From: Styela clava
Taxonomy: Eukaryota; Chordata; Ascidiacea; Stolidobranchia; Styelidae
Direction: 5' to 3'
Assembly (NCBI RefSeq): GCF_964204865.1
Contig: NC_135258.1
Coordinates: 10,283,001 to 10,347,000 of the forward strand
DNA length: 64,000 nucleotides
Every line of letters starts with the position of its first letter. Position 1 is the stretch's first letter. Below are positions 1,240 to 64,000 of this stretch, one piece after another. A model generated the notes under the pieces. That model worked only from the letters and a program-made list of their open reading frames with translations, was not told the origin of the DNA and ran no database searches. Position numbers and translations under genes: made by a program.

Positions 1240-1252
1240 TCATTCTTGTTTA
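1201..1252. repeat. Direct duplication of 22 bp at the MUTYH stop codon
   Basis: The 22-bp unit beginning ACAAAATCTTCATTCTTG is present at 1201-1222 and again at 1231-1252, separated by 8 bp. The second copy contains the minus-strand MUTYH stop codon (1240-1242). The duplication therefore spans the end of the coding sequence and start of the 3' UTR. It looks like a local replication or repair duplication. Confidence 0.8.
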
Positions 1253-4715: not shown

Positions 4716-5715
4716 ATTACCGGTACTAACTAATGTAGACTTGAAAGATTACATAATTCAATTAATAAAGTGCAGCGATTTTCGTTTACAGTCATCACAG
4801 ATAGTACTGAATGTATAATCAAAATATCTTCATGCTTGTACAGCGCCTTGCTCTGAGCAGACGGCATATATATAGGTGGTTGCATGTACAAAACCTTGCT
4901 CGAGTGAAAGGCATGGATAAGCGTCATATAAATCATAAAATACTATGTCAAATGAAGTTAATGAGAAGATTTCAAAACACTTTTACGCAGGCGTTGCATA
5001 TAAGGAAAAAATAGTTGACAAAGTAGCAGCTAAACAGTTATTATTTACTAGTATTGTTTAAATAAAAATGCAAAAAAAATGTTTCGGGTTGAAGTCCCTA
5101 AACTCAAAGTTACCAAGCCACAGCTAATGAAAGGCTCAAGTCAAGTCAATTACTGAGCTGAGTCTTGTCTGCGGTAATTTAATACGAGTCCAAGTCACTT
5201 TATCCGGATACCCAGAGACACAACACAACAAGTTTTTGATAAATGGTGAATAGAGTCAAAATTGACTCTAGTCTCTAACATTCCCAAAACTGCAAAGAAA
5301 TAAGATGAGGAATTATTATCATTTATTACATAATATGAACACCTTTATCAATAAACAATAAAATATATGACGGTCAACGAGGATTAATATTGAGAAAATT
5401 TTAACAATTCAATTGCATGAGAATACAAATGCAGTGATAATAAAGATTATATGCATAATTTTACAGTGAGTTAAACATAATTATGTGGTCACGACAGTGT
5501 TGATAGAAGCACACATACATGCAATAATGTACCAGTAAAAAATTGGGTACCGTACATGGATTGCACAATAAAAAATAATCAGAAGAATGATATTGAATTT
5601 AACAATAATATAAAATCCAATAATAGATAAATTGAAAAAATAGACTTGGCTGTGAGCAGTTTTTAAAAGTAATTTCTTGAGTTGCCTCGAACCAAGCTAC
5701 TGGTACTTAGTATAA
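4716..5715. other. Spacer between MUTYH 5' end and sulfotransferase 3' end
   Basis: This is about 1 kb of AT-rich sequence with no supported exon. It must include the MUTYH promoter/5' UTR and the sulfotransferase 3' UTR, since both genes run on the minus strand. AATAAA-like motifs on the minus strand occur around 5340-5360 and 5560-5580. No other structure was recognised. Confidence 0.5.
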
Positions 5716-6654: not shown

Positions 6655-6865
6655 CCTGAAGATTTATCATGACACAGGACTGGACGCCAAAAAAGTTTTT
6701 GTGATATATTATTATTACTGTATTATATTACTACAATAAATCAAATTCCCACTGCAGAATAATTTTAAGTTCTTCTCGTTACTGCGTTATGTAACTGATG
6801 CAATAAAATGTTGTATAAATGTGAAAAACAGAAAGTTAAACAAAGTTCCCCCAAAAATTGAAATT

Positions 6866-41100: not shown

Positions 41101-42759
41101 GTGAGTTGTGAACAAAAATACAAAGTGGCATTATTAAATATTACTATGGTGTTACCGGTATTCAAACTCGGGCAAAAGTCTGAGATTGTGTATAAATTTT
41201 GCATGTATGTTTTTTGTCAGATGAATTGATTCAGAAAGTTAGAGCAATACTACTACTATAAACTATTTTCCCAAAAAATTCATGAATAAAAAAAATAATT
41301 GAAAAATATATAAAGTACTAAGTAATATATAAAATGTAAGAGTTTGTCATTCCAAAGTCAAAAACTATTAGAATGACCAAATTTTATTATATCGATTTAG
41401 CATATTAAAAACAAAAATTCTAAAAATACCTTGTACTATATATGATGCAATCTCTAGGGCAGTGTTCTCCGCACATTGTAAAGTTCCGTTGTTCACATCT
41501 CGTTTGATTTGGAGAGCAAAGAGATATCGAGTATACTCATCTTGCATTTGACTCGGATCAGGTGTAAAAAACTTTACACCAAAACTAAGTACTGTGCTCT
41601 CAAGTTCTGAATAAGAAGTTCATATTCAAGTTCAGATTTAGAATTTATTTGGTAACACTTGTCATTAGGGTAGGCTATGTATTACATAAATACTACTACA
41701 AGTTTTGAAGATTGAGAGTATAGGTTCATACCATTGATATCAATTGTTGAGAGCAATCATAAATCCAAACTATGATCTGACTAAACTGACAATATAGAAG
41801 TTCACTCAACAAAACCGTACACTGTTCAGCATTTCAATAAATTATAATGACCATATCATGCTAAAATATTTTATAAATTGATAATAATTCTTAACATATA
41901 CATAAAATTCTAAGGAATGCCGTACTTCTAAAAATAAACAATTATTTTAACAGCAATTTACTTTTAATTTGTCTTCCAATTTCACGAAGCGGATCAAGAA
42001 ATGTCAATCCATCACCATTATCATACGATGCACCAAAATAATCAGATTCCAGAACATCCAGGTCTTTCATAATGGCTTGCAATAGCACACTTCCACAACT
42101 CGATGGCTGCAAAATAGAAATAAAAATTGGAACTTTGTGTCAAATGTGATTGAAAATGTAATGAGCGTGATGGACTAGTGGTTAATTAAGAGCATTAAAC
42201 TGTGTTGGAATAGCAGGTTTGGTTCTCTGGTTCAAATCACATGTACACTCAGGAGGTAATAAATAGGGTAGGCCTCGCCTGTCCAATGCCAAACCGTGAA
42301 AGTTCCGGTCCTACCAAAAATAATAGCTCAATAAGCGTCAAATTAAAATATTTACCATTGATCGCTTATCTGTAACGATAGATAATTTTAGTTTATCGCG
42401 TACTACATATTTTTCATATTAAAGTTACAAATTGAGTAACTATACTGTGATATATAGATCACAGTGATAATGTATTATGATATAATTCACCAAAATCAAT
42501 TATTGTATTGATATTATTAAAGATTTTTTTAATAACAAGTTATACTGTAGATAATCGTTTGAGACGATCGTAGCAAATTCATTGCGGCCACCTCACCAAT
42601 GTAAATACTGTTCCAATCGAAAAGACTTAAATTCCTACCAAACTGTGGCTGTTTCTACACAAGGATATATAGGCTAATATTTCTATTGCTTACCTTCACT
42701 TCATATGAGTTGATGGAATCATCCAGCATTTTCACCTGAATTGTTGTTGATGAAGGCAT
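17152..42759 (-). CDS. FARP: FARP-type RhoGEF (FERM, DH and two PH domains), 22 coding exons
   Basis: Exons (minus strand): 42759-42694, 42106-41962, 41606-41430, 41031-40908, 40831-40684, 40560-40465, 39971-39793, 39491-39311, 39040-38947, 38479-37389, 31109-31040, 30948-30758, 30173-30081, 29398-29150, 27346-27160, 24917-24730, 21373-21215, 20638-20452, 19837-19662, 19134-19027, 18204-18053, 17233-17152. All phases agree, giving 1380 residues with a stop at 17152-17154. The order matches vertebrate FARP1/FARP2: FERM and FERM-adjacent region, linker, DH, PH1, PH2. Near-identity includes [11 protein letters not shown] and [17 protein letters not shown] in PH2. FARPs activate Rac-type GTPases at the plasma membrane. 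Weak points are the exon 10 donor (TCA|GTGATA) and a possible missing short exon in DH between 29150 and 27346. The linker is about 330 residues longer than in vertebrates. Introns are rich in MITEs. Confidence 0.93.
17350..17577 (+). mobile_element. tRNA-derived SINE (family A), copy 2, in FARP last intron
   Basis: An A-box-like stretch (GTGTGGCGCATCATGCTAAG) and a B-box-like GGGTTCGCATACCC are followed by GACATGGAATGGTAACTGAA, GTGGTTCTCCATATGATTGA and GCCGTCTTATTGGCT. The same ordered blocks occur at 11247-11445. It lies downstream of the FARP exon at 18053 and before the last exon (17233). Confidence 0.75.
17924..18033. mobile_element. 110-bp palindromic MITE next to a FARP splice donor
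   Basis: The arms CTCCTGAAGTATGCGCACCA and TGGTGCGCATACTTCAGGAG are exact inverted repeats around a short centre with CAGGTT units. The flanks carry a perfect 8-bp duplication, AAAAAATT, at 17916-17923 and 18034-18041. The insertion lies in the FARP intron after exon 18204-18053; its duplication starts about 11 bp past the donor. It is hAT-like by target-site length. Confidence 0.9.
20189..20404. mobile_element. 216-bp hAT-like MITE in FARP intron
   Basis: A perfect 8-bp duplication, TAGGCCAT, flanks the element (20181-20188 and 20405-20412). The right end, GGTTGAGGACCACTGCGC, is the hAT-type terminus. The left end, GGCTCACTACTGAACC, is a diverged inverted match. It ends 48 bp from the PH1 exon at 20452. 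Confidence 0.78.
20452..21373 (-). other. FARP PH1 domain exons
   Basis: Exons 21373-21215 and 20638-20452 encode the first PH domain, directly after DH. Diagnostic strings are [40 protein letters not shown] and [17 protein letters not shown], then the C-terminal helix [14 protein letters not shown]. The [12 protein letters not shown] segment is almost unchanged from vertebrate FARP (recalled). Confidence 0.95.
21498..21711. mobile_element. 214-bp hAT-like MITE (family B), copy 1
   Basis: A perfect 8-bp duplication, CAAATAAA, flanks it at 21490-21497 and 21712-21719. The ends are CTCCAGAAGTATGTGTACC and GGTACACATACTAAGAGAG. Its inside matches, in reverse orientation, the element at 29524-29736 (CACTTGGCTAATACA, CTAAAATAAGGAAAATCAG) and the truncated copy at 24068. 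It lies in the FARP intron upstream of the PH1 exon. Confidence 0.9.
22214..22228. repeat. (GA)n microsatellite
   Basis: A short uninterrupted AG run inside a FARP intron. Confidence 0.8.
22382..22404. repeat. (AT)n microsatellite
   Basis: A pure AT dinucleotide run of about 23 bp inside a FARP intron. Confidence 0.9.
22771..23046. mobile_element. 276-bp hAT-like MITE with TGTGCGCG-rich ends
   Basis: The termini CAATGTTCCCTCTAA and TTAGAGGGAACACTG are inverted repeats. The flanks CCCCCTGG (22763-22770) and CCCACTGG (23047-23054) match in 7 of 8 positions. The subterminal regions are unusually rich in GTGTGCGCG and CGCGCACAC, standing out against the AT-rich intron. No coding capacity is seen. 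Confidence 0.85.
23136..23425. mobile_element. Probable degraded hAT-like MITE
   Basis: The left end CAGTGGCTCTCAAA and right end GAAGAACCACTG are partial inverted repeats. GTGAGGCGTAG follows on the left and GGGGCGCAGC lies near the right end. The flanks show no clear duplication, so this call rests on the termini alone. Confidence 0.5.
24068..24230. mobile_element. Truncated family B MITE, copy 3
   Basis: It starts GGTACTCCCGTAGTGTG and continues through TTTATTCCGATTTTCCTTA and GTTAGCCAGGTGAATATACC, as in the copy at 29524. It then ends in a duplicated GTTTCAGTCCCTTCACA and lacks the other terminus. Confidence 0.75.
26290..26508. mobile_element. MITE with GTTTCCCCGAAAATAAG termini
   Basis: The ends ACCGTGTTTCCCCGAAAATA and TATTTTCGGGGAAACATGGT are imperfect inverted repeats about 220 bp apart. 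Internal copies of AAAATAAGCCCTGGTG-type sequence are also present. Flanking TA dinucleotides suggest, but do not prove, a Tc1/mariner-like target. I recall similar termini as widespread in animal genomes (not checked). Confidence 0.75.
29524..29736. mobile_element. 213-bp hAT-like MITE (family B), copy 2
   Basis: The ends GGTACTCCCGTAGTGTGTGT and GGTACACATACTTCTAGAG are inverted repeats. The flanks CTGTTCGA (29516-29523) and CTATTCGA (29737-29744) match in 7 of 8 positions. The body matches the copy at 21498-21711 in opposite orientation. It lies in the FARP intron before the exon ending at 29398. Confidence 0.87.
30758..31109 (-). other. FARP linker exons 11-12
   Basis: Exons 31109-31040 and 30948-30758 encode a polar linker ([28 protein letters not shown]) just before the DH domain. 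Their splice phases (0-1 and 1-0) fit both neighbours. The PPALPAK stretch could bind an SH3 domain (inference). There is no similarity to the vertebrate linker beyond low complexity. Confidence 0.75.
31110..37388. other. Large FARP intron (6.3 kb)
   Basis: AT-rich intron between exons 10 and 11, the longest in the gene. Apart from the 33-bp tandem repeat at 33002-33099 I see no transposon ends, RNA gene or coding exon. The open frame at 33599-33859 has no family resemblance. Confidence 0.6.
33002..33099. repeat. 33-bp tandem repeat, three copies
   Basis: The unit GATTTGTTACATTTGTCTGG plus GTTAGTT and a variable GAAAGA/GCAAGA spacer occurs three times head to tail. The first copy is slightly diverged. 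It lies inside the large FARP intron. Confidence 0.9.
37389..38479 (-). other. FARP exon 10: 1.1-kb linker exon
   Basis: This single exon encodes about 364 residues between the FERM-adjacent region and DH. It is acidic, Ser/Asn-rich and predicted disordered by eye, with [11 protein letters not shown] and [11 protein letters not shown] (SH3-like proline motifs). It ends in [21 protein letters not shown]. Reading through its weak donor gives seven more residues and a TAA at 37368, which would yield a FERM-only protein. The exon accounts for the extra length of this FARP over the vertebrate protein. Confidence 0.85.
40102..40186. repeat. Interspersed repeat (family C), copy 1
   Basis: A segment from AATACAAAGTAGTTTTC through GTTAGTGCCTAATTGCTTAT to GTCCAGCTAATAG is repeated at 43255-43337. 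The last 40 bp differ at only two or three positions. It lies in a FARP intron; boundaries and class are unknown. Confidence 0.75.
42161..42352 (+). mobile_element. tRNA-derived SINE (family D) in FARP first intron
   Basis: An A-box-like ATGGACTAGTGGTTAATTAA is followed about 40 bp later by a B-box-like GGTTCAAATCAC. Then comes a non-tRNA body (GTAGGCCTCGCCTGTCCAAT, AAAGTTCCGGTCCTACC). Its sequence differs from the family A SINEs. The 3' end was not resolved exactly. Confidence 0.65.
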
Positions 42760-47075: not shown

Positions 47076-48649
47076 TCGGCAAATTCTCTGGCACACGATA
47101 TATATAACAAAAATCATAAATATTTTGAAGGCATATCGACCAAGGATTTCTCTCTGTGAAAATTCTTTGCACCCATTGTTTATTATGTCATATATTAGCT
47201 ATAAAACAGAAACACATTTCACAATCTTGTTATCTAACACATTGGTTTAGATATATCTTTATATTTTGCACGGTATACAAGAAACGTCACGGTATATGAG
47301 TAGAATTGACTTAGTGTGGTATTACCCTACAACATAAATATGCGATATAAAGGAACTATGCATTTACGCAATCCCTCAGAAACAACGTAATTCGTTAGTA
47401 ACCCTGAAAGTTGTAGCACCTTCGTATACCTGTGTACATTTTCATCCACACATATATATGAATGGTTGGAACGAAACCCCCACAATACCTTTTTTTGCAC
47501 CTCAGAGCGCTTGGAAATATATCTTAAGCAGGCAACGATTAGTATTAATTAGGGACAATAGCAATATTCTCAAAATTATTGTGTGAGATTTTGACAATTT
47601 TTAACACAGTCCAATAAATAAATAGGTACCACTTGTAACATAGAAAATTGACTGGAAGCTAGAGACCTGACCATTTGTATCCTTTATTATGATGACGGAA
47701 GTTGGAAAAATGAAGACAAAGAAACAAAGGCCCATTGTCCATAAGCTATGTTCGGGAGAAATTACATTAACGATTTCCATGAATTATAGATACATCTTTT
47801 GTGTTATTTTTCATTCATTTTTTTCTGAAAATCGCCTGTTATATATATATATATACTCGAAGTGGTCATTAACTACATGTAATGTTATAAAAGTGTCTGG
47901 ATCTGTCAACACACGGCACAGCCAGCCTGCTATTCCAGCTGGACAATAAGATTCAAGATATGGATTATAAAACATCATTTTATTTGGTAAGTAGGTTTTT
48001 GTTCCTGCTGAAAATTTAAACGTATTTGTGTATTTCGAATTTAAGTTTTTGTTAGTTGATTTGATTGAGTATAAGAAATTAATTTCGCTATCTGATAAAT
48101 TATTTGTATATTATTTGTTATTACTCATAAACACTTCGCAAACAAGTATGTTACACCTAAGCCATTTAATATTCGCCGATGCCAATTATCTATTATCTGA
48201 TGGCTTTTGACAAAAATATTCAACACCCAACTTACGGAATTTATTGTCATGTATTATAATATATAGGATTGAAAATTTAGTAAAACTTGATAGCTTTGTC
48301 TAGATTAAAATTTGAAAGACCAAAATCCACTAAGAAGTCAAACTATCAATATTTTTGAGTAGTTTTTTCATTTCAGCCAATTTGCCTATCACGTTCATTA
48401 ATATAGTAAGCGTATTATATCTGATAATATGATTGGGTGCCTCAATTTAAAGACTCACTGCATAGCTCATTGGTACAAATCAGTGATTCCGTCAACACAA
48501 TAAAGACGTTCTCGTCTGTCAACGAAATCTCTAGGTTCCCACATGAACTTCCACTTCGTAGACGCACTCAAATTCGAAGTCAGCGTCTATTATCTACTGA
48601 CATATATATTACAAGCAAAAGTCTCTATATAGCTCAGTCTAAAGTCGAA

Positions 48650-51346
48650 ATGCTCGCATCTTTTCTATCGGTAGTCTTTCTGGTTTTACTGGAGGGTTCG
48701 TGATTTTTATACTTGTAAATGTACATGTTCCAAATTTAATTAGGAAAGAGTTTCAAGGTTAGTTTCGTTGGTAGAATCTACAAACAGATAACCCTTTTTC
48801 TCATAACAATTAATGTCTCCATCAACAAAAAAAAGAGTGAAAGTAGGTAACCACTCTGTATGTCATTGTATACTCCTCTACGCCTTAGTGAATGCTCGAT
48901 AAGATCGCATTTGCTAGAATTCAGTATTTTCAATCTATGGGTCACGATTCAAAACTCAGTCGTCTGAAAATCTGCTTATCTTTCGGGTGAATTTTATTGT
49001 TTAAGCTATATTTCGTATTGTAGTGTTTCTTAGTAGTAATTGCGTACCTGGGAAATATCACAGTTCAATGTTATATTTCGGCAGCAGCAGCTAATTTGAT
49101 TAACTAAATAAACCCAACCCACTGATGGGAAACAAGCGCAGCTTTCTCAGTAGTGCAACTTTGAATCAAATTTCTGTTGAAATATTTCATTTAATTTTGC
49201 GGGTATAAAAGCAATACGTGGCATTTTGTGTGAGAGTATATCATTGAGTCGCGAGATTATACTAAATTTATTCTATATAAAATTTGGGTCGCCTGATAAA
49301 AAGATTGCGAACCACTGCGCCAGATAACATCTCATTAAATATTACAAGTAATAGAGTGCAGTACATATTTTGTAAATGCGAGGGCGCACCCCTCGGCTAT
49401 GTTATCTCGACTGATTTGTGCCTATCAAGTTATTTATCCTGATTTATTTTCAGTCAATTATTTTGGGGTTTTCTCTGATCATGAAAGGGCGATGCACCCA
49501 TACCTACGGTAAGTTGCAATCTATTTCTTCATATTTAAAACTTTGAACATTCAGTACAAAACAATCTTCAAAACAACAGTATTGAATTGGAGATACGTTT
49601 GCTAATATAGTTATATCTCGATATGTCGTAGTACTGCACAAGAATTTGAAAAATGTCAAAATATCGGAAAATATGCAAACTGATATATATATATATAGCT
49701 TTTATGTGCAGGATGTGAGACATTCAAAATGTTTTATTGTGTGAATGTATGTTGATATTTATGTTATTTGCAGCCTACATATTTTATGGAAAATATCCAG
49801 ATGGAGAATTTGATCACAATGTTTTTGGAGCATATAAACCATGCAGTGATCAAATGGATTATTGCCATATATTACCTATTCGAGGAAACATCACGTATTC
49901 ACCTTTACGATCTGCGGCGAAGTCGATATATTATCCTGATGAATGGCCCAACACCATAGCTTTGGTAAGCCTTTGAGCGATGTGATACCTCACCTAAAAC
50001 AGAGTAAATAATGTTATTGAACTATTCCTAATGACCAAGTACTGTAAATATGGCTTAGCTGTGATAATTGACGTAATTATTGCATTACTGATTTTCTCAT
50101 TACGCTGTCCTTATATGTTCAAACTGTTGTCCAGTGCAAATTATTCTTTTAATGGACCACGTCTGCATTGATATACAGTATATCACTGCAGCACTGAGTA
50201 CCGTTACCGGTACCTACCACGTTACCGTATCTCGTTTAATTTAATTTTAGCGTCACAGATATTCCGTCTTCCTATTTAATGCTACAAGATTTTATTACCT
50301 GTTTTCTTCGCTTTCAATATCCACCGCGTCTAATTGAATGCCAGTGTTACGCCTTCAGAATCTGACGTTTGTTGCCGACTGTTAGACAATGCGCATCACA
50401 ATAGTATTGTTGTGACACAGTCCATTAATGCCATCTCCATGGTTACCAAGTTAATGGTGTTCAGAGTCGTGTTTTATTGAAGTGAGCGACTGTTGATTAT
50501 AGCAGATTGCCTCGAGATATTGTATGCATTTTATTTTCCAATTTACTTACACTTGATTCGACTTTTTCTCCCTTATAATATAGTGTCCAGAGTTATTTTA
50601 TAGGTGCCGCTGCTCGATAACCACCACTGATTTCCCGCGTCCTTTTCATCCTGTAATATGGCCTATTTATAATTCATTGCCATTTGCATGTTTGCGCCTA
50701 TTTAAACTATGGTTATATAAAAAACTACTTATTACTGAGTGTTCGCAATCAGGCTATCTCTAGCCAATGTATACAACACGTATCAGCATTTCAGACCTTT
50801 ATCTACCTGATTAATTAGGGAATACCCTACGAGTTATCCGGTAGGATGGGATTTTCAAACCTGTACCGGTGCATTTTATTCTTAAAACATAACTTCCGAG
50901 TTTCCAAATTAAATTAGAAGACGAATCTTGGGTGTCGCTGCTCGATAACCAAATTTGGTTCCCCGCGGCTTCCCTTCCCCAGTAGAATTATGTGTTAAAT
51001 TTTGTTTATCTTTTGATTTTGTATGTTATTTTTTTGCCGGTTGGAAAAAATAAAATTGACTATGACTATGATATCTTACCACCTCTATAACAAAAAAATT
51101 ACAATCCAGCAATCGTCATTAATCCAGTTTATTTGAAGATACGCTGTCACTGTAATACTTCACATGCTGTTTCCAACATCTCTCTCCTAAATGATGTAAC
51201 AATGATTATTTATTGTAGTTAATGACAATTTTTGTGAGTAATATGCAAATACCCAATTTGACAGCAATATTCAGGCTATCCTTGGATACTTCTTGATGTC
51301 AACAAAAAACAGATTGAAGTTGGCGATATGACCTACACTTTTGAAG
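48650..51346 (+). other. Signal peptide and unnamed N-terminal region (exons 1-4)
   Basis: Exons 1-2 encode the signal sequence, with a likely cleavage near residues 20-25 (KGRCTHTYA). Exons 3-4 encode about 90 residues (YGKYPDGEFDHNVFGAYKPC, DYCHILPIRGNITYSP, SGYPWILLDVNKKQIEVG). They have two Cys, an N-glycosylation site (NIT) and aromatic residues. I do not recognise a domain. It may be an atypical leading part of the first CTLD or a separate small fold. Confidence 0.65.
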
Positions 51347-54300
51347 GTGAGAAATTCAATTCCTACTTACAATTCTAATAAAATAACAATAAATTTTAAC
51401 GCCGGTGTTGATTTGACTTACGTATATATATATATGACTAAGGAATAATGAATGACTGGGCGGCTATTAGCCTTCTTAGTCCTTGAAACGTCCGCACTAG
51501 GCGGGGTCGCAATTCCGAAGTCTCAATGACCTACAAAGGTCTTGCATACACAACTCAATGTTTAAATAATTCACTGCATTGTATTTTCGATAAAAATTAA
51601 TATCTGTTCTTTTTATTTAACTTTGTTTTGTGGAAATAAAATCTCTCTCTCTCATTGTCGCGGGGGTCAAAACACACCGGGAATTTTAGCCCAAACTTCT
51701 TGTAATGGGTAAACATTCTGTTTATATCCAATCTTCTTCATTTCAATTTTCTATCCATGACTTATTTTAACATTCATGTGGAACGTTGCGTCAAATTAAG
51801 AAGACATGCCCAATATTGTCCCAATGTTTTTTATTCTGATTTGATTGTTCCGGGTTGTAACCTAAGCGCATAGTTTAAATCCTACATAATAATTTGCTCA
51901 CACACTTGATTATTTTGTCTATTGTTCGTTTCTTTGCTATTTTTGTGAGTGAGATATCCAATATGGCATGCAACGACGTTGTCGCATCTGCCTTCCTGCT
52001 TTTGGAATCACACACATAGTACAGGTTTTTTGGTTGGCTTATTATGTCAACTACCAAAGTTTATCTTCAATCAGTTTCAGTAACTACTTGAAATATTTAT
52101 TTCAGATTACAGCCCAATGTGGTACATTGATTCATATTATCATTTCTCCAATGTCAAAATGAGCCACATAGATGCGCAAAGATATTGTGAGGGTCTGGAC
52201 GGATATCTCGTTGTCCCGAAACACGGTCCTTTGAATCAGTGGATCAATGGCAAAGTTTCGGGATCAATGTGGTCAGGTATGCAACAGGAAAAGGATTAGT
52301 AAGTTATTTAGATATGACGTCTGGGAGCTCTCGTTGATTCTTGCTGTTCATCATAATAAACGCCAACTCAAAAGCAAGTAAAAATAACTGTATTTCATCC
52401 AAAATACTCAAACAAAATAATTTAGCAACGAAGGTATATTAGAGACAAAATAAAACAATATTCAAATAATAAATATTACATTAAGGTATCAAATATATTA
52501 ATGAAACATGGATGTATCACGTCGGACAAGGCAAAGGTATTTGGTTCAATGAGGCAGAATTCATCAAAAGCAATGTACTTGCTCCCGGGGGAGATGGAAG
52601 TTGCATGCTAATTTCAATGGGAAGTATGAAATGGTCAAGCGAAAGTTGCAGCAAAAAATTGTCTGTAGTCTGCAGAATACGTGAGTATTAAGAACCGTTC
52701 TTGAAATGGAAAGATGAGAGGTGTGAAGTTACAAGTTTCATGACCTGTTATCAGCTAAATCTTTTCAGACGAACATCTGAGATACGGACACACAATGATG
52801 GTAGTTTATGAGAAATACCGAAATTACACAGAAGCTTCAAAAGTTTGCACTGATGCCTATGAGTTTCTCGTGAGACCGGACTCCGCCAAAAAACTGAAAT
52901 GGCTATCGAGCATAATCAAATTTTATCAGCATTCTGGACTATTCTTGATAGGTAATACTATTATATAAGTCAATATAACTGTCCTATAGAACTATAAAGA
53001 CTTAATGAGAAAATGTAAGAATAAGAGATGAATACTGTGATGATTTCCCTCATTGATTGAATTACATTTTTATCGTTGATTAAAATTTGTTCAGGTTATA
53101 ATCACTACACTGTACGAAATTGCTCTGGCATTCATCTGAATATCTGTGAATATTTTCTGCATTGAATACTTAGCAAACATATATTTATCATCTCGAGTAG
53201 ACTATGCTAGCAACATTATGCTTTATTATAGATGTTATTAAATTTCGACATTTTTTTGACAAAGGGGATCGATCATCCACGTATTGTGTATATACTTCGA
53301 CATTGTTATGTTATTATGTCGATTGTTGCTATGTTATATTTTGTACTTCAAACATATAATTATCAAAAGATAACAGGTACATCTATACATTGTAAGTTTT
53401 CAATGTTTGTAGGAGAGTAGATAAAGAAGTACGGTTATTCATAATTTGTTCCTACATCCTAAAAAAGTACGGACAAATAGTTATATGAATGTATATATAA
53501 TAATATATTAATATTTTATGAACCAATAGATGCCCTATACAATATGGAAACAGAAGTTTATGAATCCACTCAAGGAGATGTTATTCTTGAAGAAATGTGG
53601 GCACCAGGACAACCAAACACTTCACTTCACTGTGTTGTTATGAATGTAAATGGAAAGTTATTATCATTCGACTGTGATGATGGTTATAATGCACAATTCA
53701 TTTGTGAATACAAGCATATAAGTAAGCCAATATACCTTTTCTATCACCGTTTTCTTAATTTAAATAATGTTTTGCTTCACATCTTTAATTTAATTTGGCT
53801 GCTTGGCTATAAAACATCTGTGTTTTAAACAAACAACCTATAGATTATTAAAGTGGCCCAAACCCAAAACCGCGGGTCACATGGGGCCCGCTGTATCATT
53901 GTCTGTGACCAGCCTCCCATATGCTGATGTACGTCCAAATTGATGATAAATGTTTCTTCATAAAATAAACGAAAAGATCTTTTAACACGCTAACAAATGT
54001 GATTTTGTTTGGGTAATTGAATAGTATGCTTGCCTAAACTGGTCCAAAAGTCAGTTATTCGATTTTGGCGCCCTTGAATGACTTAATTGATTGTATCTCT
54101 TCCTTCGGAAGTAGCGTCTACACAAATAATATACCTAGTACTAAAATATAAGAGTGAAATGGGTGAAAATTTTGATCAACTATCAAAATAAAAACATGGT
54201 AGAAGGGCCCTTACTTTAAACTGCATATCCTCAGTGTGGTAAATGGTCTATGCCAAACTGGAGATAAGCTGGTCTTCTCAAAAACATAGTACAGTAGCAC

Positions 54301-57300
54301 ATTCTTCTTATGTGTCAATGACTTATTGTTCAGGATGTTTTGCAACGTTGTGTTTCGAAGCCTTTTATACATAAATATAAAATACTATATATTTATTATT
54401 ACAGAAGATAATTTTGTCGCCGTCGTTGACAACAAGCGATATTACTGGCATAATGATACTACATTTCAATCTGTTGCTAGTACCAAGTGCGAAAGTGATG
54501 AAGGAGGAAGTCTTGCTGAGGCATCACAATTGTGGCAAATCATGACGTTGGTATCAACATATGCAACAGATTATGCCACAAATAAGGTTAGAGAGTGCAG
54601 AGTCATACATGTGTTGCATTACAATGTTCATTATAATGTTCATTTTGACCTATGCAACGTTTCGCTTAGCTGATTAGCTCAGCTGAGAGTCGGACAAAAA
54701 GTCAAGTGCGTGTCAGAATTTAGTCTTCTTAGGTTTATGAGAGTCCCATCCATATCTCTATCCAATTTTACATTAAGCTTTCAATGTTGATGATAAAATG
54801 TATTTTACTGAACTTACACTTAACTGTTATTTCATGACAGACGTTTTGGTTGATGTTAGCCGGCGGATATAATATTCAAAACGGCATGGTTGTTGCAAAT
54901 GATAACCGACCAAATGACATGTGCCCTACGTTTCGAACGCTTCATATCCCAACATTTGAATGGAAAAATTGTAATACAATACATCATTATTTGTGCAGGA
55001 AAGGTAAACTGATTTTCTAAACTTTCAGTATCTCTTATTGAAATTGATAATTCGTTTTGATACCTGCATGTATACGTGTTGTCCGTTTTACTAAAATCTA
55101 TCATTTTATCAGAAAGAGTAGTTTTTTTTTATTAAAATATCAATATATATATATATGATCTTATAAATAATTCATTCAATGACATCTTGAAAATCCCTTT
55201 ATGTTATAGAATACAAAGAAGTAATTCCCGATGAAGACCAGAGTCTTTGTCCTCCTGGTTTTATGAGAGCAGAGGAAAGCACATGTTTGCGGGCATATCA
55301 CGAAACAGTGGAATGGCATGTAGCGAAGACAGTATGTGAAGCAGATACCGAGCAACGTGGATCCTTAGTAAAATTTCAACACAATCATCCTCAATCTATC
55401 CCCGTGTTATATTTCATGAAATCACAAGCAAATACGGCTGATGAACAATTTTGGGTTGGCATGTGTGGTCAGTATAAGTATCTATGTTTATCTAGTTTAT
55501 CCTATGTTTTATCGCATAATAACGCCAATTAAAATTTACTTGAACTGCTTTTTATGCACTAACTTTGAAGGGTCAGAAAGCAGAGGGACATACCTATTTT
55601 GGACATCAAAAAACGCGACATCCGACGATATAACGACACCATACTATGCAATTAAAGGAGAGTGCCTTGCCGTGAGTCCGCTGAATGCAGATATCAATAA
55701 ATACAACACGTTGTGGAGGTTGTATAATTTCGGTTTCGTGTGCCAGCAGGAAGCTATTATGGTATATGTTTTTTGGTGTTTTCAATTCCATCGTTTTTTT
55801 AAACTAGAGTTGTACTTAATGTACATTCGCTTGCAGTTCGGAAATACGCTTTTTGAAACAGTCCGAAGATTCTGGTGGATGTTGTAGGCCTATTGTTCTT
55901 CTCGGACCTCGGAATGTGTTTTGCTGTTTGACAAAAATTTAAAAAATGTCCGCCATATCATTGCAGATATCAATTTACATTTATAAGGTGTCTAGCATCC
56001 CACTGACTCAGGCCCAAACAGAAAAAGACAAAATGACGTTCTTTTGACATTTTAAAGTTTACAGTAATATTAGGTGAAATAATTTCTCTGGAAACTTGCT
56101 GACGTTAATGGCACAAAACAGCAGAACATTTGTATTGATCCTTGTAAATATAGTAACGTTACAAGTTATGGACGAGCCAATCTGAATATACAAAACCATA
56201 TTTGAAGCAAATTTCAGTGTTCTATCACACCCAGACCCAGCAGGCTGACTGACAATCGTTTAAAAAGTTGACATAATTCGTACGATCAGGTTTTTTTAAT
56301 GTCAAACAATAAAACATTTATGTTGGTTTTAATAATATAGCATGTGAATATGATTTACAAAAGCTACAATACCCCGACAAGAGGCGTGTTGTTTCTAATG
56401 TCTTAATATGTAATTATTGTTTGATATATCTTCATTTCGTTTTTTTTTCATGAAATAAAGATATCGGAATACAATACATTGAACTTAACGGAAGAATCTC
56501 ATTTATATGAAATGAAAGCATTTTTTGGAGATGTTGAGTTCTGTCCAGAGTCATACATGAGTTTTGGAGATCATTGCCTGAAATTTCCAAATCCTACTAA
56601 AGTCACATTCGAAGAAGCTCAAAATTGGTGTTACGACAGCAGTCATCCTTCGTCTATTGCTGTTGACGATTCGGAAATCAAGCATTCAGTCATGTCCAAG
56701 CTGGCACATGCATTGAACTTCACTGTTGCTGAAACGTATAACTTTATTTCTATATATGTACATAAATACAATTACTCATTACACATATACAAATGACACA
56801 ACTTTTCACTTACAATTGGTTGTTTTCCAAACCGTCACCAAACCTAAATAGCACCTAGGACTTAGGACTAGGTCATGATCACTGCACTTAAACATTTCGG
56901 AAAATAATATCACCATTAAGTTGTTTGATTTATACCTAAATTTCGGAATCACGACTAGCTAAATCACAGAAATACTGTAATTTTCCCAACCATGCATGAA
57001 ATTTGCTTGAGTGAAAAATTTCTTTGAGCGGCCTCTGAAATATCAATTTCCCCGTAACCTATGCAAATGCTGAACATAAGTAACGAAGGGAATAGGCCGC
57101 GAGACGAGGCCGTTTATCTTTCAGTTTCGTAGCGCACATAAGGGAACTACCTGAAAATGATTTTAAAATGTTCCTTAGAAATTCAGTAGCAAATAATGAC
57201 TTGTTCCCATTTCCGAAAGTTGCGCGTTTTACGGAAAAGCTGCTTTTACTACAAAAAATATGCGCCACGATCTGTCCTGTATTCTCTGCTTTTCCGGTAT

Positions 57301-60300
57301 CATGGGCCAATGAACACAGACTTCTGCATGATGTAACAATTACAACTGGTCAGCTGTAGGTGGATCCCCCGTGGTCGAATGAATATCAGATGGCGTATTT
57401 GATTCAGAAAACAATGGCTGTTTCTGTAATGCACATTTGTGTGAAAGATGGGAGAATAATCAATTTTACTGATGTTAGTTGGTCTAAATTCATAGAGTCG
57501 ACAAGAACCTGGGAAGCAATGATAAGTTATGCCGAAGTTGAAAGAAAGTAGCCATAGGGCATTTCAGATTGTGATATACAGAGATTCAGTGTAGATATAG
57601 TCTGGTATTCAGGACTGTAGTACATCAGATAAAATGTCGTATGTATGAGGAGTATTAGTCAGTATTTAGTGGTATTTTTACACTCATGCTGTTCTAAATA
57701 TGTTTTTCTTCCTCATTTTAGATACTTTACTACGAAAGAAAACGACAATGTTCCACCAATCCAACCTAACACAGGCTATAATCCCTGCTGCTATCAGCGC
57801 TATACCTGTAAGAATAAAATGGATCAAACAAGAAGTCTTAAAGAAAAGTGTAAAGGTATATGAGATGACAACAGTTGTAAACAGCTTAGATGGGCTATTC
57901 ATATTGAAATACTTTGGCTTTCTTCTGCACTTGAAACCGCTCATCTCGTAAAACTGATGTTGGAGGACTCGAAATTCATTGAGTTTTTTCTCAACTATGA
58001 AGATATTTTGAAGTTAACGAGGCATTAATAAATAAATCTGAAGAATTTGTTTGTTCACTGTATGAAGAGGATATGAAGAATGTAAATGATACCAGGGCAC
58101 GTCTTTTCAAAACTGGCAAACATATGGATTATACTCTTTCGCCCAACGATGATTCACTAGAGAAGCATGTTCTGAGGGTAAATTACCAGGCAGGGCTTCG
58201 TCACTATTGCCTAGAAAGAACCAAGGCCAAGTATTCCCCCGCGTATGGCCATGGATGGGTTCTTGGTGATGGTGTTTTGCGAGTTCAATTGATGGATCTA
58301 CTTCCAGCCCTCAAAGCAGTTCTTGAGTTGGCAAACTGCAACTGTGAGGCAAATAGGCGATAAAATATTTTATGCATGTGTGCTGAAAACAATCTAAATT
58401 GCACAGACTGCAAAAACCACTTATACACTTACAGAGGAAAATTCGATTTTCAAGACTGAGGATTTTGGAAGCAATTCAGAAAAAGTGAATTAGATATTGA
58501 AGTTGATTTAATAAATATTATTTATTAGTTTTGTTCAGACATATGTTAGTGTCGAAAGTCCTGTTGCTTAAAAGGAATATAATTCCGGCCTGGTTTTTAG
58601 ACACTATCTGGCGAATTCTTGAATGATTGTCTTCAAAATAGAAAAATGTTAATATTTAATTTTTTTCTTTTTATTTCAATACAGGTATTGGATAAGCTTG
58701 CGTCCATCGTACAGTGAAAATTTTATTCACACTGACTTGTTTGAACCGAGTCCAATAAATCACTGGGAAAATGATGATTGGAAGGATAATGGATATGTAG
58801 TATTAAAAATTCCTGATAAATGGGAAAAGCTGTCTTCTAAACAATCAAGGTGGTACTTCTGCCAATCAAAGCAATGTTTCCGGAATCATCCATCAAGTTA
58901 TTCAGGAACTGTATGTATTTATGTTGCACAGCGAATTATCGTATATGTATACATGGCTTATACAAAAAGAATTATTATGATGACTTAATGAGACATTCGA
59001 GATTCTTTAAATAAATTGTTTTTAAATATTTTTCCTTGTCTATTCCTGACACAACTTGAGCTTATAAGATTTCTAGTCGTTCTTTATGTGTCATTGCATT
59101 CCCGGAGTGTAGTGTGACGACAGCACTATGTGTTAAACGGGGTTTCCCAAGTTTTTTCTCAGGACGACCCACAGACAAGTATGTTTAAGTGCCCAGTACG
59201 ACTAATATATATATTTCACTGAATTTCAGATTTTGTCCATGTGCTGGAATTTAGTAAATTAAAAGAGAAAATTTAAACTTTCTGTTTTATTTAAAAATAA
59301 CGAAATGACAAAACAAAATTTTAGTTTGGAAGATTATAAAAATTCTTCAATTAAAAATGATCTTTGCTCGATAAATTTCCTGTATTTGCGGATTAGGATG
59401 TCAGGAACCAAAGAATTTTCCAAGTTAACGTTTGTTGTAGGGCTGTGATAATAATTTTTAATAACCACAATGAATAAGAATCTTCAAATTTTTCTTATGC
59501 TTAAATTTTCATAACAATATAATTGCCATTATACGCTATTTTTATCGAAAACGCGGAAAAGCCTAATATAGCTTTTCACTGCTATTTGAACTTTGAATTA
59601 AATACGGGTGTACTAATGTACTTAAATATTGTCTGTGAACACAAACAATTCAAATTGCAAATCTACTACAAGCGATTTCATTGTTAACAATCAAATAGTG
59701 ATGCCACATTAACCACCTATACGTTCAAAAGCACAAATTTAAAGCAATGCTCGTATGCCTTTTCACAGTAAGCATTGGTACAAACAAATCAATGTAAACC
59801 TCGACGATCCTAGGCCTATAACCTGTGTGCGACCCCACCTAATTATCACTCAGACCCAATTTGGTGTCGCAACCCCTGGTTCGAGAACCCCTGTGATAAA
59901 TACTGATTTACCATGCTCTGTCTTCATTTTTCAACTGATCTTTTTAATCAGGACTTTTATTTGCAATGTATTTGTACATTTGTGTCGTTCTCAACAAAAA
60001 TCTTATTTTCAGATGAATATCACCCGTAACGGATTCCAATGCCAGGCCTGGGCGTCGCAATCGCCTCATTGGCATAATGTGTCTGTTGAGCAGAATCCTG
60101 AAATCTGGAAAGAAAACTACTGTAGAGATGATGGTCAATATGCTGGCCCTTGGTGTTACACAACGTCTCATTTTATGAGGTATATGACCTATTTTCTAGG
60201 TAACTCGTTCTAGCTTTGGATTTAAATCTTTAATAATATTTATTTTTCAGACATGAACTGTGTGATATCACTGGTTGTAATTCAAACTTGGTGCGTTACC

Positions 60301-63300
60301 CATCCAACATTATCACGAAAGAAAAATATTCTGACTTCATTCCGGCTATCGAGTACTCTAATGTTACTCTCGAGTGCAGAGACGATGAAGTTTTGTTGGA
60401 CTGTGAATGCACTAACGAACATTGCTTAGGCGTCAAAGTCATTGAAAAAACTGCCCTCGAAGATAGATTCTCGGGTTTCCTTGACTCTCAGTGTCTATTA
60501 GTCGCAAAACCAATGAAATTGCTATTTATGACAAGAAGTAAGTATTTATGACTTTGTACATTTATATTTGAGTATATAGCTTTTGCAAGAAAAAATAATC
60601 GGTCGCCTCATGAATAACTGCGCCTTGCATACAAAATATTTTAAGATGAAAAACTACCGATTGAAATACTATCTATCAAAGTTTCACCCTCGAGTACATA
60701 TGAACACATAAAATGATCATTTCACTCATTAACATAGAACATGAGAGGCGTCCCATGTTACATCAAACTCAGAAACTGTTGATCCTGTTATTTCAGTAAA
60801 CATTTGCCAAGTACAACCAAACGTTCAAAAGTTCTATTAAAAATAACTAATCATCTAATCTAATCGCACTCCATTTGTGCCATTAACAGGTAAAATCCGG
60901 TGCTTATCAATAAACAACTATTTCCTAACAAGGTCAATTATAACAAAACCTGGTAGTGCCGTTAACATATCATGTCCACCCCGTATGAAATTAGCTTCGT
61001 GTAACAGCTTCGATAGCGGACTGAGTGAATATCCGAACAAGTAAGTGGAATTGTTGCAAAGTGTTCCGAATGTGCACCATACATGCAGTTCGTAGACAGC
61101 ATATACAGCCCAAGCCGTACATTGTGATACTCACTGCACGTGTGATACGTGCATGTGGTGTTCATGACGAAGTTGTTGATACGATTGTTAAATGACACTT
61201 TTAGTGTAAAGTAAAACTGCAGCAACACTAATTTTGCCTTTATTCAACCAGGGTAACTCTTGGACAGGCACTTCGAACCCCAATTGCAAATACCATAGAT
61301 GTATGTACTTCTAGAGATTGTACGGGAGAAGATTGCGAGACGACAGCAATATGTTTAATGACAAGCATCTCACAAATTGTTACAGTGCATGTATCAAATC
61401 GATTACGATATACAGATCGCAGCATAATTTTCCCCGCAATAAAAGAACCACGCTGGAAAAATACTAATGCAGCCTTCTATGTGTTTCCCTATGATGACAT
61501 AGGAACATTGTGCTTCTGGATAAAAACTGCTTCAAAATACGTGGGAACAATACTATACCTTACCAGGACACATACATATCCTGTTCTGGCTGTGGCAGGT
61601 GGGAGTCAAACTGAAAGTGGATTGTTCATTGCACCAAATGGCGAAAAAATAAAATTTGACCCGACAGTATTGATGGATAATTACTGGCACAAAATGTGTC
61701 TTACCTTCGGTTCTACCAATGATTCATCTTCCACGTGTGCACTTTATATTGACAGCATTCTGACCGCTGAAACAAATGAATGGGTCACGTGCAATAAAGG
61801 AATGCTTTATCCATATGGTCACTTGTCATTGGGAAGAGGAATGGATGTTTTTAACCCAGTAATTCTATCAGATCCTGATATTCTAATTACAGACAATTCG
61901 TTTCTGAGTGAAAATGAACGAATTGTATTGCAATCGCCTTTTGAAGGAGTAATTGGTGACATCGCATGTTACGAAAATCCTTTGTCCACTGAAGCTTTAC
62001 GCCGTCTTCGCTTTGCTTGTTTCGAAACTGATTGGTATATGGGCATTCCAACTCTCGCACTATCGCAAGAATATAAATACTTAAAAGGGTCCGATATCTA
62101 CGCAGGTACAAGAATATACGGAGAGATCAAAACATACACCGGAAGCAAACCTTGCTCCGAGGTGAGTTACATGGGCTTTTTGTTTCGAAATTTTAAGACC
62201 CTTAAAAATAACAAAACGTGAGATCACGTCATTGTACAAAACTTCAAAATAATCCCACAAGCTCTACAATAAGTAATAGTAATAGCCTTCTAGCGACAAC
62301 AACAATCTTTTACCACTGGAATTTCTAAACAATGGGCCCAGTAGAGAAGGAGAAAAGCTATTTTTTTTCATAATAACAACATAGGCTAATAACAAAACTA
62401 TCCATAGGTAGCCTACTCTTCGTGTCCAATAAACACCATTTACCCGAGGGCGTAAAAGAAATGTGTGTTAATGAATATCTGACTTATTTTTGTTTTAGGA
62501 TATCGATTTTTATAAACTATTCACCTATGAAAATTCTGTTGAGACCTCGTCTACTAACGTTACTATTACTGTGGATGTACATGCGTCTAATTATGAACTT
62601 TTGAAAAATATGATGGTTGATAAATATTATGTTTCGATAAAATGCAACCGGGAATCAAGGTAAAGACATTGAGTACTTTGAATATATGCAAACGCAACAA
62701 GTTGCGCAATACTCGTGTCCTAGCGATACATACGACGTGCGGAATATCTATTTTGTTCACAACTAAAGTCACCGAATTTAAGAGAATAAACCCGACGAAA
62801 TTCTCTAAAATAAAACTGTGATCCACCTGATGAGCACTAGTTTTTATTACCTCCAATAATATTATCTGTTCATTTAATATTATTCCCTCACTGTTTTACT
62901 CATTTAGAAGTTTAAAATCCATTTTCTATAAATATTTCTGCGAAATCTTTAATCGCACGTGATAGAGTCAATTTGAATATCCTTCTTTCAATTCCCATGT
63001 CTTGAAATATTTTATATATTATTTAATTGCAAAGGTGAAGTTTTTTTGCGAACTACTTTTTAAAAATAAATATTGTTTTAAAGGAAGTATTTTAAATCAT
63101 TTTAGTTCTCAAGAATCACCTCTAATATCAGCGATTTCCGAATTTCCACTTATCCAAATGGAAAAAAACGCAACGAAAATCATAAATATAAACAATTTAC
63201 TCTCGGTCGAAGACTACACTTGCTATATTTATTCACATGTTAACCTATGGACGAAATCAAACCAAGAAAATCATCTCAAAATCAGGTTCACGACAACAAC

Positions 63301-63524
63301 AGGGCCTGTTACAAACGTAACGTAAGGAAACAAACCACTTTTTATTTCTCTTAGCAGAAGTCCTGTCACGCCAGGCAGTTCATGGAGCGCTATATCTTTC
63401 CGAAATCGATCTACTTTCCTACCGCAGTTTTTTGATAGCTGTGAGCTGCCTTTATTGGAGACACACCTATACAGCATTAATAAAAACTTGAGTACGCCAA
63501 CAATAGAAACTATTCAGAACAGCA

Positions 63525-63561
<37 letters not shown>

Positions 63562-64000
63562 GCCGCTTTGGCTTTACCTTTTTCCTTTTATCTAAATATT
63601 TATACGCTTTTCGATCCACAGTTTGGAAGGAACGGAATCCATCTGGTTCAACATTGCCTACCCAATATTACAATGGGGTTTGAACGATAACAATACATCT
63701 ATTTCCCCTGCTGTCTGTTTCAAGTGATTTATTTTTTATTAGTTTTAATACTTAACAATCTTTCAGATCATTGGTTTATTTGAATAAGATGATAAACTCA
63801 TACGAAATCCTAGAACCCGGAACGGACAAATTGTGGTGGCAACCACCTGATCGCGGTGAAATCACACAGTATAAAGTAATTGCATACACCAAACTCACCA
63901 ACAATACGTTCATACAAATAAAAAATGAAATAATAAAAAGCGATGATTTTCATAACTACACCGTGATGAAAGAGGAAGGGAGCGCAGGCGCTATTCCAGG
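48650..64000 (+). CDS. Multi-domain lectin protein: 5 CTLDs, kringle, pentraxin/LamG-like, FN3-like (3' end outside window)
   Basis: Exons: 48650-48670, 49454-49508, 49774-49964, 51265-51346, 52106-52276, 52486-52680, 52769-52951, 53530-53721, 54405-54586, 54841-55003, 55210-55467, 55571-55761, 56461-56735, 58685-58910, 60013-60179, 60251-60537, 60890-61040, 61252-62161, 62499-62659, 63106-63321, 63622-63723, 63767 onward. Every junction is GT-AG and all phases agree, leaving one frame of about 1537 residues to the edge. Exons 1-2 give a signal peptide (MLASFLSSIILGFSLI). Many lectin exons have phase 1 borders, allowing domain shuffling. Expected outside the cell, binding glycans or surface ligands (inference). 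Whether it ends in a TM segment, kinase or phosphatase cannot be seen. The first donor (CTATCG|GTAGTC) was chosen because only it keeps frame; exon 13 could also read through to a stop at 56796. Confidence 0.85.
51440..51655. repeat. Retroposon-like repeat ending in (CT)n, copy 2, in lectin intron 4
   Basis: It contains GACTGGGCGGCTATTAGCC, TGACCTACAAAGGTC and a final GGAAATAAAATCTCTCTCTC. It shares the middle and end blocks with 46890-47075. It lies in the intron before the first lectin exon. Confidence 0.45.
52106..52680 (+). other. C-type lectin-like domain 1 (exons 5-6)
   Basis: Residues about 117-239. The fold markers are YHFSNVKMSHIDAQRYC (helix 1 and first Cys), GYLVVPKHGPLNQWINGKV, then CMLISMGSMKWSSESCSKKL and a closing VVCRI. 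The four canonical Cys are present. No EPN/QPD or WND calcium motif is seen, so sugar binding through calcium is unlikely. Confidence 0.85.
52769..53721 (+). other. C-type lectin-like domain 2 (exons 7-8)
   Basis: Residues about 239-364. YRNYTEASKVCTDAYEFLV supplies helix 1 and first Cys; WAPGQPN gives the site-2 loop; LHCVVMNVNGKLLSFDCDD and QFICEY close the fold. QPN resembles the EPN sugar-binding motif, but the WND partner is replaced by SFD. Calcium-dependent binding is possible yet uncertain. It is the only domain here with a near-canonical loop. Confidence 0.85.
54405..55003 (+). other. C-type lectin-like domain 3 (exons 9-10)
   Basis: Residues about 364-479. YYWHNDTTFQSVASTKC and GGSLAEASQLWQIMTL form the first half; FWLMLAGGYNIQNG, MCPTFRTLHIPTFEWKNC and HHYLCRK the second. 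The calcium loop is absent. It is shorter than domains 4 and 5. Confidence 0.8.
55210..55761 (+). other. C-type lectin-like domain 4 (exons 11-12)
   Basis: Residues about 479-628. It is a long-form CTLD with an extra N-terminal Cys hairpin (CPPGFMRAEESTCLRAY). EWHVAKTVCEADTEQRGSLV, EQFWVGMCG, ECLAVSPL and FGFVCQQE follow. No EPN or WND motif is seen. Confidence 0.85.
56461..58910 (+). other. C-type lectin-like domain 5, with first kringle Cys (exons 13-14)
   Basis: Long-form CTLD: FCPESYMSFGDHCLKF, FEEAQNWCYDSSHPSSIAV, TYWISLRPSYSEN, INHWENDDWKDNGYVVL and WYFCQ. The 1.95-kb intron splits it after AC|GTATAA and holds the pseudogene at 57190-58480. Exon 14 ends in QCFRNHPSSYSGT, which supplies the first Cys and opening of the kringle. 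Confidence 0.82.
57190..58480 (+). pseudogene. Decayed copy of an uncharacterised Cys-tail protein gene in a lectin intron
   Basis: Three reading frames are needed to follow one protein. 57360-57551 gives NFTDVSWSKFIESTRTWE; 57721-57860 gives YNPCCYQRYTCKNK; 58073-58363 gives TLSPNDDSLEKHVLRVNYQ, then YGHGWVLGDG and LPALKAVLELANCNC. After a frameshift comes a Cys-rich tail (CMCAENNLNCTDCKNH). I recall this layout (a TSW..KF block, then LPPT-like..AL..H..RA.YQ, GW, C.C tails) as a common uncharacterised family in aquatic invertebrates and fish, sometimes near mobile DNA; that is memory only. Frameshifts and stops show it is broken. It is on the same strand as the host gene. Confidence 0.6.
59138..59892. 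mobile_element. Probable hAT-like element in kringle intron
   Basis: The left end (CGGGGTTTCCCAAG) and right end (GAGAACCCCTG) are diverged inverted repeats. The right part, with GTGCGACCCCACCTAATTAT and GACCCAATTTGGTGTCGC, matches the element at 3207-3482. The flanks TGTTAAAC and TGATAAAT share 6 of 8 positions. No transposase frame is visible. Confidence 0.6.
60013..60537 (+). other. Kringle domain remainder and linker (exons 15-16)
   Basis: Joined to the end of exon 14, this forms a full kringle of about 78 residues. CFRNHPSSYSGT, FQCQAWASQSPHWHN, ENYCRDDG, GPWCYTT and RHELCDITGC give the six Cys in canonical spacing. Kringles bind proteins or lysine-rich ligands. The linker after it has further Cys (ECRDDEVLLDCECTNEHC). 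Confidence 0.92.
60890..62161 (+). other. Cys linker and pentraxin/LamG-like domain (exons 17-18)
   Basis: Exon 17 adds a Cys-containing linker (SCPPRMKLASCNSF). Exon 18 (910 bp) encodes a jelly-roll domain of the pentraxin/LamG type: IGTLCFWIKT, YLTRTHTYPVLAV, DNYWHKMCLTFGS, CALYIDSILTAETNEW, LSLGRGMD and FEGVIGDIACYENPLS. WHKMC and LSLGRGMD are usual pentraxin landmarks. Calcium-binding residues are not clearly conserved. Confidence 0.8.
62499..64000 (+). other. Fibronectin-III/Ig-like region, cut by the window edge (exons 19-22)
   Basis: Exons 62499-62659, 63106-63321, 63622-63723 and 63767 onward. The text has beta-sandwich character. YTCYIYSHVNLW in exon 20 could be an Ig- or FN3-type strand pair. 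YEILEPGTDKLWWQPPDRGE followed by ITQYKVIAYTKL in exon 22 fits an FN3 B-C strand region. Several N-x-S/T sites suit an extracellular location. Domain borders are unclear. Confidence 0.65.
63530..63560. repeat. (TA)n microsatellite
   Basis: A dinucleotide run of about 30 bp in the intron between lectin-gene exons 20 and 21. Confidence 0.9.

Follow-up and report, generated by a model that had tools for sequence, protein, structure and literature searches.

A very large gene of the ascidian Styela clava, read as a probable adhesion receptor with lectin-like, kringle and thrombospondin modules

A stretch of 64,000 nucleotides from the ascidian Styela clava (contig NC_135258.1, positions 10,283,001 to 10,347,000; hereafter the window) carries in its right-hand part a gene with lectin-like, kringle and other outer modules, which raises the question of what kind of protein such a combination belongs to. 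A preliminary description of the window took the product for a secreted or surface protein with an unfamiliar set of domains. It is still best seen as a surface protein of unfamiliar composition, but secretion fits less well, the product being most likely an adhesion G-protein-coupled receptor (GPCR). In particular, the gene probably encodes an adhesion GPCR of very large size, of which the window contains the 5' half. It is filed in this class because of its GAIN-GPS region and its topology, with the reservation that class-B homology of the membrane region went undetected. The most likely order of its parts is signal peptide, N-terminal segment, about five C-type-lectin-like domains (CTLDs), kringle, cysteine-rich segments, pentraxin/LamG-like domain, about four FN3 domains, six TSP1 (thrombospondin) repeats, HRM, GAIN/GPS, about seven membrane helices and a short tail.

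The genome searched was the window's own assembly (376.6 Mb, 379 contigs), in which the window is C10:10283001-10347000; positions past 64000 are window coordinates continued rightwards on the same contig (C10). The part of the gene inside the window consists of 22 exons (47960-64000, + strand), which join into 4619 nt, or 1539 amino acids, with no stop, the alternative frames of the join containing 90 and 120 stops. The preliminary claim of 22 exons without phase conflict and about 1537 residues was thus borne out as an open join, but the gene runs on to 42 exons. The true end of exon 22 is 64200, and 20 more exons follow past the window edge in the same frame. In genomic sequence, the full model spans 47960-80890 and holds a single frame of 2898 amino acids with one terminal stop (172 and 210 stops in the alternative two frames); the edge of the 64-kb window therefore cuts the gene in half. 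Since exon ends were picked for openness together with GT-AG, the open frame is not an independent test: it describes the gene model, and the proof is carried by the domain matches. Overall, the gene appears well supported.

The decisive modules lie past 64000, where the preliminary description had proposed to look for a transmembrane helix and where a multi-pass membrane region was found. HRM scores 1.4e-7, above the Pfam cut-off, when its segment is scanned alone, and GPS 1.2e-6 (29.4 bits; cut-off 22.5 bits). In a PDB search, the HRM-GAIN-GPS part aligns to latrophilin-3 (ADGRL3) across query residues 23-375 of 382 (E 3.7e-10), and 14 of the 15 PDB matches listed are adhesion GPCRs. The GPS reads CDHL/TTFAVLT, that is, an intact HL/T cleavage site followed by the hydrophobic tethered-agonist motif TTFAVL. 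With HRM-GAIN-GPS and membrane segments lying downstream in one and the same frame, a secreted lectin or complement-like protein was rejected.

After the GPS come six strong hydrophobic segments and one weak one. With boundaries set by eye, lysines plus arginines number 1, 4, 3 and 6 in the presumed inner loops and tail and 0, 1 and 0 in the outer loops, which fits an N-out orientation. A GWxxP motif stands at the expected helix 4, and cysteines precede helix 3 and occur in the second of the outer loops; these are features of class B receptors, a resemblance that is no proof. As no homology of the membrane region was detected, the seven-helix assignment rests on the position after the GPS, the number of helices and the charge pattern.

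Several observations weigh against this reading. The GAIN segment has no Pfam match when scanned alone, its assignment resting on the latrophilin alignment, and the HRM was missed in the Pfam scan of the whole C-terminal half. The stretch between the GPS and the first helix, which necessarily lies outside, bears three lysines or arginines. Neither Pfam, including 7tm_2, nor the PDB at E<=10 yields a match to the membrane region, and none of the 126 genome matches to 7tm_2 listed falls on the receptor's membrane exons. Four class-B-like receptors from this genome, part of an initial set of ten stretches, served as references in hhalign; the membrane region scores 21.9 against them, which lies inside the range of 100 locally shuffled controls (maximum 24.4); among themselves, the four reference receptors reach 192-291 in leave-one-out comparisons. 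Homology to seven-helix receptors by profile is therefore not supported in this controlled test. With the GPS included, the score is 30.8 against a maximum of 23.7 in 30 controls, the GPS itself being part of that alignment. The gene model is built from genomic sequence. The membrane region is unusually divergent, matching the class-B-like receptors of its own genome no better than shuffled controls do, and its undetected class-B homology does not show another fold. Searched against the genome, the membrane part gives 25 matches, 18 in the array on contig C10; the other 7, all weak (E 0.117-2.24), lie outside it.

The outer part begins inside the window with the following exons, all on the + strand.

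47960..47986, +: exon 1, start codon plus first residues of the signal peptide (MDYKTSFYL); in phase with exon 2, donor TTG/GTAAGT, TATAAAAG at 47886
49454..49508, +: exon 2, remainder of the signal peptide (SIILGFSLIMKGRCTHTY); GT-AG, in phase, signal peptide by eye
49774..49964, +: exon 3, N-terminal segment, fold without Pfam match; joined frame
51265..51346, +: exon 4, N-terminal segment, fold without Pfam match; joined frame
52106..52276, +: exon 5, first half of CTLD1; Lectin_C 9.6e-9 for CTLD1 alone, above cut-off
52486..52680, +: exon 6, second half of CTLD1; same Lectin_C scan
52769..52951, +: exon 7, first half of CTLD2; Lectin_C 1.6e-6 for CTLD2 alone, above cut-off
53530..53721, +: exon 8, second half of CTLD2; same Lectin_C scan
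54405..54586, +: exon 9, first half of CTLD3; CTLD3 by itself reaches Lectin_C 0.022 (16.0 bits), under the cut-off
54841..55003, +: exon 10, second half of CTLD3; same Lectin_C scan
55210..55467, +: exon 11, first half of CTLD4; CTLD4 by itself reaches Lectin_C 0.0013 (19.9 bits), under the cut-off
55571..55761, +: exon 12, second half of CTLD4; same Lectin_C scan
56461..56735, +: exon 13, first half of CTLD5 (divergent); no Lectin_C match when scanned singly, UL45 (C-type-lectin-like) at 0.034, under its cut-off
58685..58910, +: exon 14, last part of CTLD5 (judged by eye) plus start of kringle; kringle match from residue 786, exon end at residue 797, donor weakest of 41
60013..60179, +: exon 15, middle of kringle; Kringle 2.6e-15, above cut-off, and separately E 3.6e-8 in the genome scan
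60251..60537, +: exon 16, end of kringle and first cysteine-rich segment; Kringle match, joined frame
60890..61040, +: exon 17, second cysteine-rich segment; joined frame, no Pfam or PDB match
61252..62161, +: exon 18, last cysteine-rich part and pentraxin/LamG-like domain; Laminin_G_3 1.4e-4, 22.5 bits (cut-off 27.6, not reached), link via a Pfam pentraxin of this genome
62499..62659, +: exon 19, linker, possibly FN3-like; joined frame, no fn3 match in the exon 19-20 segment
63106..63321, +: exon 20, linker, possibly FN3-like; joined frame, no fn3 match, also copied in tandem unit three
63622..63723, +: exon 21, start of the FN3 region; inside a segment with fn3 0.001 alone, below cut-off
63767..64000 (true end 64200), +: exon 22, FN3, cut at the window edge; fn3 0.001 alone, below cut-off, continues past the window

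Intron 13 contains, at 57360-58363, open reading frames (ORFs) that resemble, by eye, a mobile-element fragment.

In the window part as a whole, Pfam recognises Lectin_C (4.9e-23, five stretches at E<=10) and the kringle above cut-off, so that the kringle of the preliminary description is confirmed. Its five CTLDs hold in part: scanned singly, CTLD1 and CTLD2 exceed the Lectin_C cut-off of 22.6 bits, but CTLD3 and CTLD4 stay under it and CTLD5 gives no Lectin_C match. Calcium-dependent sugar-binding C-type lectins are marked by EPN or QPD together with WND. All three motifs are missing from residues 1-800, where a single QPN occurs in CTLD2, and classical calcium-dependent sugar binding by the CTLDs would therefore be unlikely.

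The pentraxin/LamG-like domain, also named in the preliminary description, remains below threshold with Laminin_G_3, and Pentaxin is not matched; its support is weak and comes from a genome relative and the PDB. The exon matches weakly (27%, E 0.0056) a genome sequence that is a clear Pfam pentraxin (Pentaxin 2.7e-12). This relative lies at L026:1114-1935 (- strand) and is the only one besides the gene itself among the genome matches listed. In the PDB, the top match is neuronal pentraxin-1, which is weak (E 0.33); a profile built from two sequences finds PTX3 at 0.017, outranked by an S-layer protein at 0.004. A single-sequence AlphaFold2 model of exon 18 reached a mean pLDDT of 30 and was not used. 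The FN3-like region is weak within the window (fn3 E 1.4), but becomes clear (1.2e-19, above cut-off) with the continuation past 64000; of four FN3 segments tested singly, two exceed the Pfam cut-off. TSP_1 follows at 2.2e-34 in six stretches, above cut-off; in the PDB, the TSP1 block is best matched by properdin (3e-43), vasculostatin-120 reaching only 3.7e-7. Neither the segment ahead of CTLD1 nor those separating the kringle from the pentraxin-like domain gave a Pfam match, the latter having no PDB match at E<=10 either; a PCSK9-like module, considered for these cysteine-rich segments, found no support. An NCBIfam scan gave no matches, and 35 N-glycosylation sequons occur within the first 2620 residues.

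The preliminary description placed the start at 48650, but 47960 is probably the better choice: its exon has a donor score of 6.9, equalled or beaten by 1.6% of 1682 other GT sites, is phase-compatible with exon 2 and lies 74 bases downstream of the start of TATAAAAG. The 48650 exon has a donor score of 2.9, a level reached by 25% of other GT sites, and is in phase with exon 3. Its combination with exon 2 was dropped because in-frame stops arise; without exon 2, a start at 48650 is still available. Against 47960 as the preferred start, the accepted donors of exon 14 (2.2) and exon 36 (2.8) score below that of 48650, and since a weak donor is thus no proof, 48650 may be an alternative first exon. 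Such alternative first exons (47960/48650), or early ends, could give a secreted lectin-kringle-pentraxin form beside the receptor. A soluble or mixed product of this kind is unlikely; it draws on the signal-peptide-like start encoded by the 48650 exon and its in-phase splice to exon 3, against which stands the weak donor, itself no weaker than two accepted ones.

It might also be asked whether two adjacent genes have been joined, a secreted CTLD-kringle-pentraxin lectin (approximately exons 1-18) and a separate FN3-TSP1 adhesion GPCR. Tandem copies hold the 3' part only, starting at exon 20 in the third unit and exon 26 in the second, so the halves are separately duplicable, and the CTLD/kringle half was found again neither in about 150 kb rightwards nor, kringle aside, in the genome. 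However, the junctions need no stop or new start, and exons 18 to 27 are in phase, a separate start from exon 20 onward not having been systematically sought. Within each half, separate genes are disfavoured because modules are bridged: exon 14 carries the end of CTLD5 (by eye) together with the first part of the kringle, which speaks against separate lectin and kringle genes, exon 16 joins the kringle end to the first cysteine-rich segment, exon 18 joins cysteine-rich and pentraxin-like parts, and intron 30 (5.7 kb) interrupts a TSP1 repeat, as judged from the pattern of cysteines. The linkage of exon 18 to exon 26 rests on phase and splice sites. On balance, two genes are quite improbable. 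A pseudogene or an assembly artefact is very improbable. The second copy is about 1% apart from the first over the 3' part, as uncollapsed haplotypes might be, and stops interrupt its counterparts of exons 26 and 28; in the third, 4 of 16 matched pieces contain a stop, three of those being gapped alignments that perhaps cross introns, and residues 2357-2562 are unmatched. Against this, the 8.7-kb frame of the copy in the window is intact, and ten clean pieces common with the third copy give a dN/dS of 0.43. A single large receptor gene is the preferred reading.

The copies lie downstream of this receptor gene, the second at about 82.2-100.2 kb and the third matched from about 102.2 kb, and no copy of exons 1-19 was found rightwards at E<=1e-3 in the roughly 150 kb searched. 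In copy 2, the donor of exon 26 is also lost, the frame is kept in exons 27 and 29-42, and both splice sites are kept in exons 27 and 29-41. Over exons 30-42, 17 of 2520 bases differ (0.67%), 11 changing an amino acid and 6 silent, with 10 of the 17 in exon 42; in introns, 102 of 10281 aligned bases differ (0.99%), plus 110 gap columns. These differences show no clear constraint, and copy 2 is possibly a haplotype duplication in the assembly. For copy 3, 16 of 19 matched pieces were compared (those above 60% identity), and removal of stop-bearing and gapped ones left the ten ungapped, stop-free pieces behind the pooled value (dN 0.089, dS 0.205). An intronless SAMHD1-like ORF of 468 amino acids lies antisense inside intron 30 (71308-72714, - strand; L009:7408-8814; PDB SAMHD1 4.1e-117) and was copied along with unit 2, with 6 differences in 1462 bases of the stretch.

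Since exons 29-41 of unit 2 are near identical and splice-ready while its exons 26 and 28 are broken, with changes mostly in the last exon, a single recognition ectodomain could stand upstream of tandem signalling halves (TSP1-HRM-GAIN-7TM). Cross-unit splicing or gene conversion could then pair the lectin-kringle-pentraxin head with different tails, giving a tunicate-specific recognition receptor whose membrane domain has drifted past class-B recognition; this idea is very doubtful.

A genome search with the N-terminal half, in which 48 of 64 candidates were scored, gave 46 matches at E<=1. Fifteen are its own exons, and the remaining 31 all fall within query residues 783-907, the kringle and what follows; the lectin part is therefore unique in the genome at this sensitivity. 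The preliminary description noted that non-vertebrate chordates often expand genes of this sort; the present gene is itself no member of an expanded family, as its N-terminal half, kringle aside, matches nothing else in the genome at E<=1. Kringle, GPS and 7tm_2 exons, read as ORFs, stand in the same strand order at C13:18006404-18044760 (+) and C5:14520183-14537836 (-), and these places probably represent further kringle adhesion GPCRs; at the former, EGF-like frames and long Ser/Thr-rich ones are seen as well. The genome has 107 kringle matches, and dense clusters of kringle exons among them lie at C5:23.82-23.83, C9:2.15-2.34 and C16:4.10-4.16 Mb.

Among known receptors, latrophilins (ADGRL) share with the Styela protein the HRM-GAIN-GPS part, aligned over nearly its whole length to ADGRL3, and the TxFAVL type of agonist motif, but its membrane region is not recognisably that of a latrophilin. 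The outer modules of latrophilins are SUEL lectin and olfactomedin domains, and they are not known to include CTLD, kringle, FN3 or TSP1. In BAI receptors (ADGRB), TSP1 repeats precede HRM-GAIN-GPS, directly as they do here, and BAI3 and the BAI1 fragment vasculostatin-120 are among the PDB matches. However, the GAIN region is nearer to ADGRL3 than to BAI3 (3.1e-5), the TSP1 block is nearest to properdin, and BAI receptors are not known to contain CTLD, kringle, pentraxin or FN3 domains. ADGRG6 and ADGRD1 are adhesion GPCRs with a pentraxin-type ectodomain module; unlike theirs, the pentraxin-like module here is below threshold and set amid other domains.

A published precedent comes from amphioxus: according to the available text of a 2008 paper (PMC2246102), Kringle, Somatomedin B, Lectin C and SRCR domains occur in some of its adhesion GPCRs. 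There, too, kringle and C-type lectin modules occur in adhesion-GPCR N-termini of a non-vertebrate chordate; in contrast, kringle plus Somatomedin B mark a ten-gene expansion, and the portions at hand do not describe a CTLD-kringle-pentraxin-FN3-TSP1-HRM order (PMC2246102). A 2008 survey of Ciona, as far as its available text goes, counted 30 adhesion GPCRs, 24 of them unclassified, 21 of which had only a GPS recognised (PMC2396169), and Kringle, FN3 and TSP1 are named as domains of adhesion GPCRs in the accessible part of a paper from 2025 (PMC12716839). In the available portions of the literature on adhesion GPCRs with kringle, C-type lectin and thrombospondin modules, the present order of outer domains was not found. 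The unfamiliarity noted in the preliminary description thus holds for the order, but not for the pairing of kringle and C-type lectin modules in adhesion GPCRs, already published for amphioxus (PMC2246102, in the part available). The receptor class is known, the ectodomain order apparently new, and a known type of receptor is a better description of the protein than a new secreted recognition molecule.

Other features were noted in the window and the genome. At 1243-6663 (-) lie exons of a MUTYH-like DNA glycosylase (NUDIX_4 3.6e-15, HhH-GPD 2.8e-9) and a one-exon sulfotransferase (9.4e-52); at 27017-27346 and 41371-41619 (-) lie a RhoGEF-like exon (2.3e-4, below threshold) and a FERM_M exon (6.6e-8), possibly of one gene. 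In animals, GH6 is known from tunicate cellulose synthase. The genome has one GH6 match (E 1.5e-6, above cut-off), which is no more than suggestive of a tunicate but agrees with the preliminary description's guess.

Exon structure, domains, GPS and agonist motif, and the N-out charge pattern were computed here. By comparison with known adhesion GPCRs, the GAIN region would cleave itself at HL/T and the large outer part would stay bound, gripping a ligand on another cell, in the matrix (tunic) or on a microbe. Contact might be made by the lectin-like, kringle, pentraxin-like and TSP1 modules, any particular ligand being a guess. Pull or displacement would then expose the tethered peptide TTFAVLT and, as in known adhesion GPCRs, switch on the membrane bundle. 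An immune role would be plausible.

On this reading, what looked like a lectin would be a receptor that signals, and its switch can be predicted (cleavage at the GPS and a tethered agonist), which makes ligand and activation directly testable. The CTLD-kringle-pentraxin-FN3-TSP1 arrangement would join the outer modules recruited by chordate adhesion GPCRs, and the gene would provide an example of an adhesion GPCR whose membrane region escapes ordinary profile searches. Moreover, the complete gene model suggests that some of the GPS-only receptors of Ciona may have rich ectodomains that were lost in fragmentary models.

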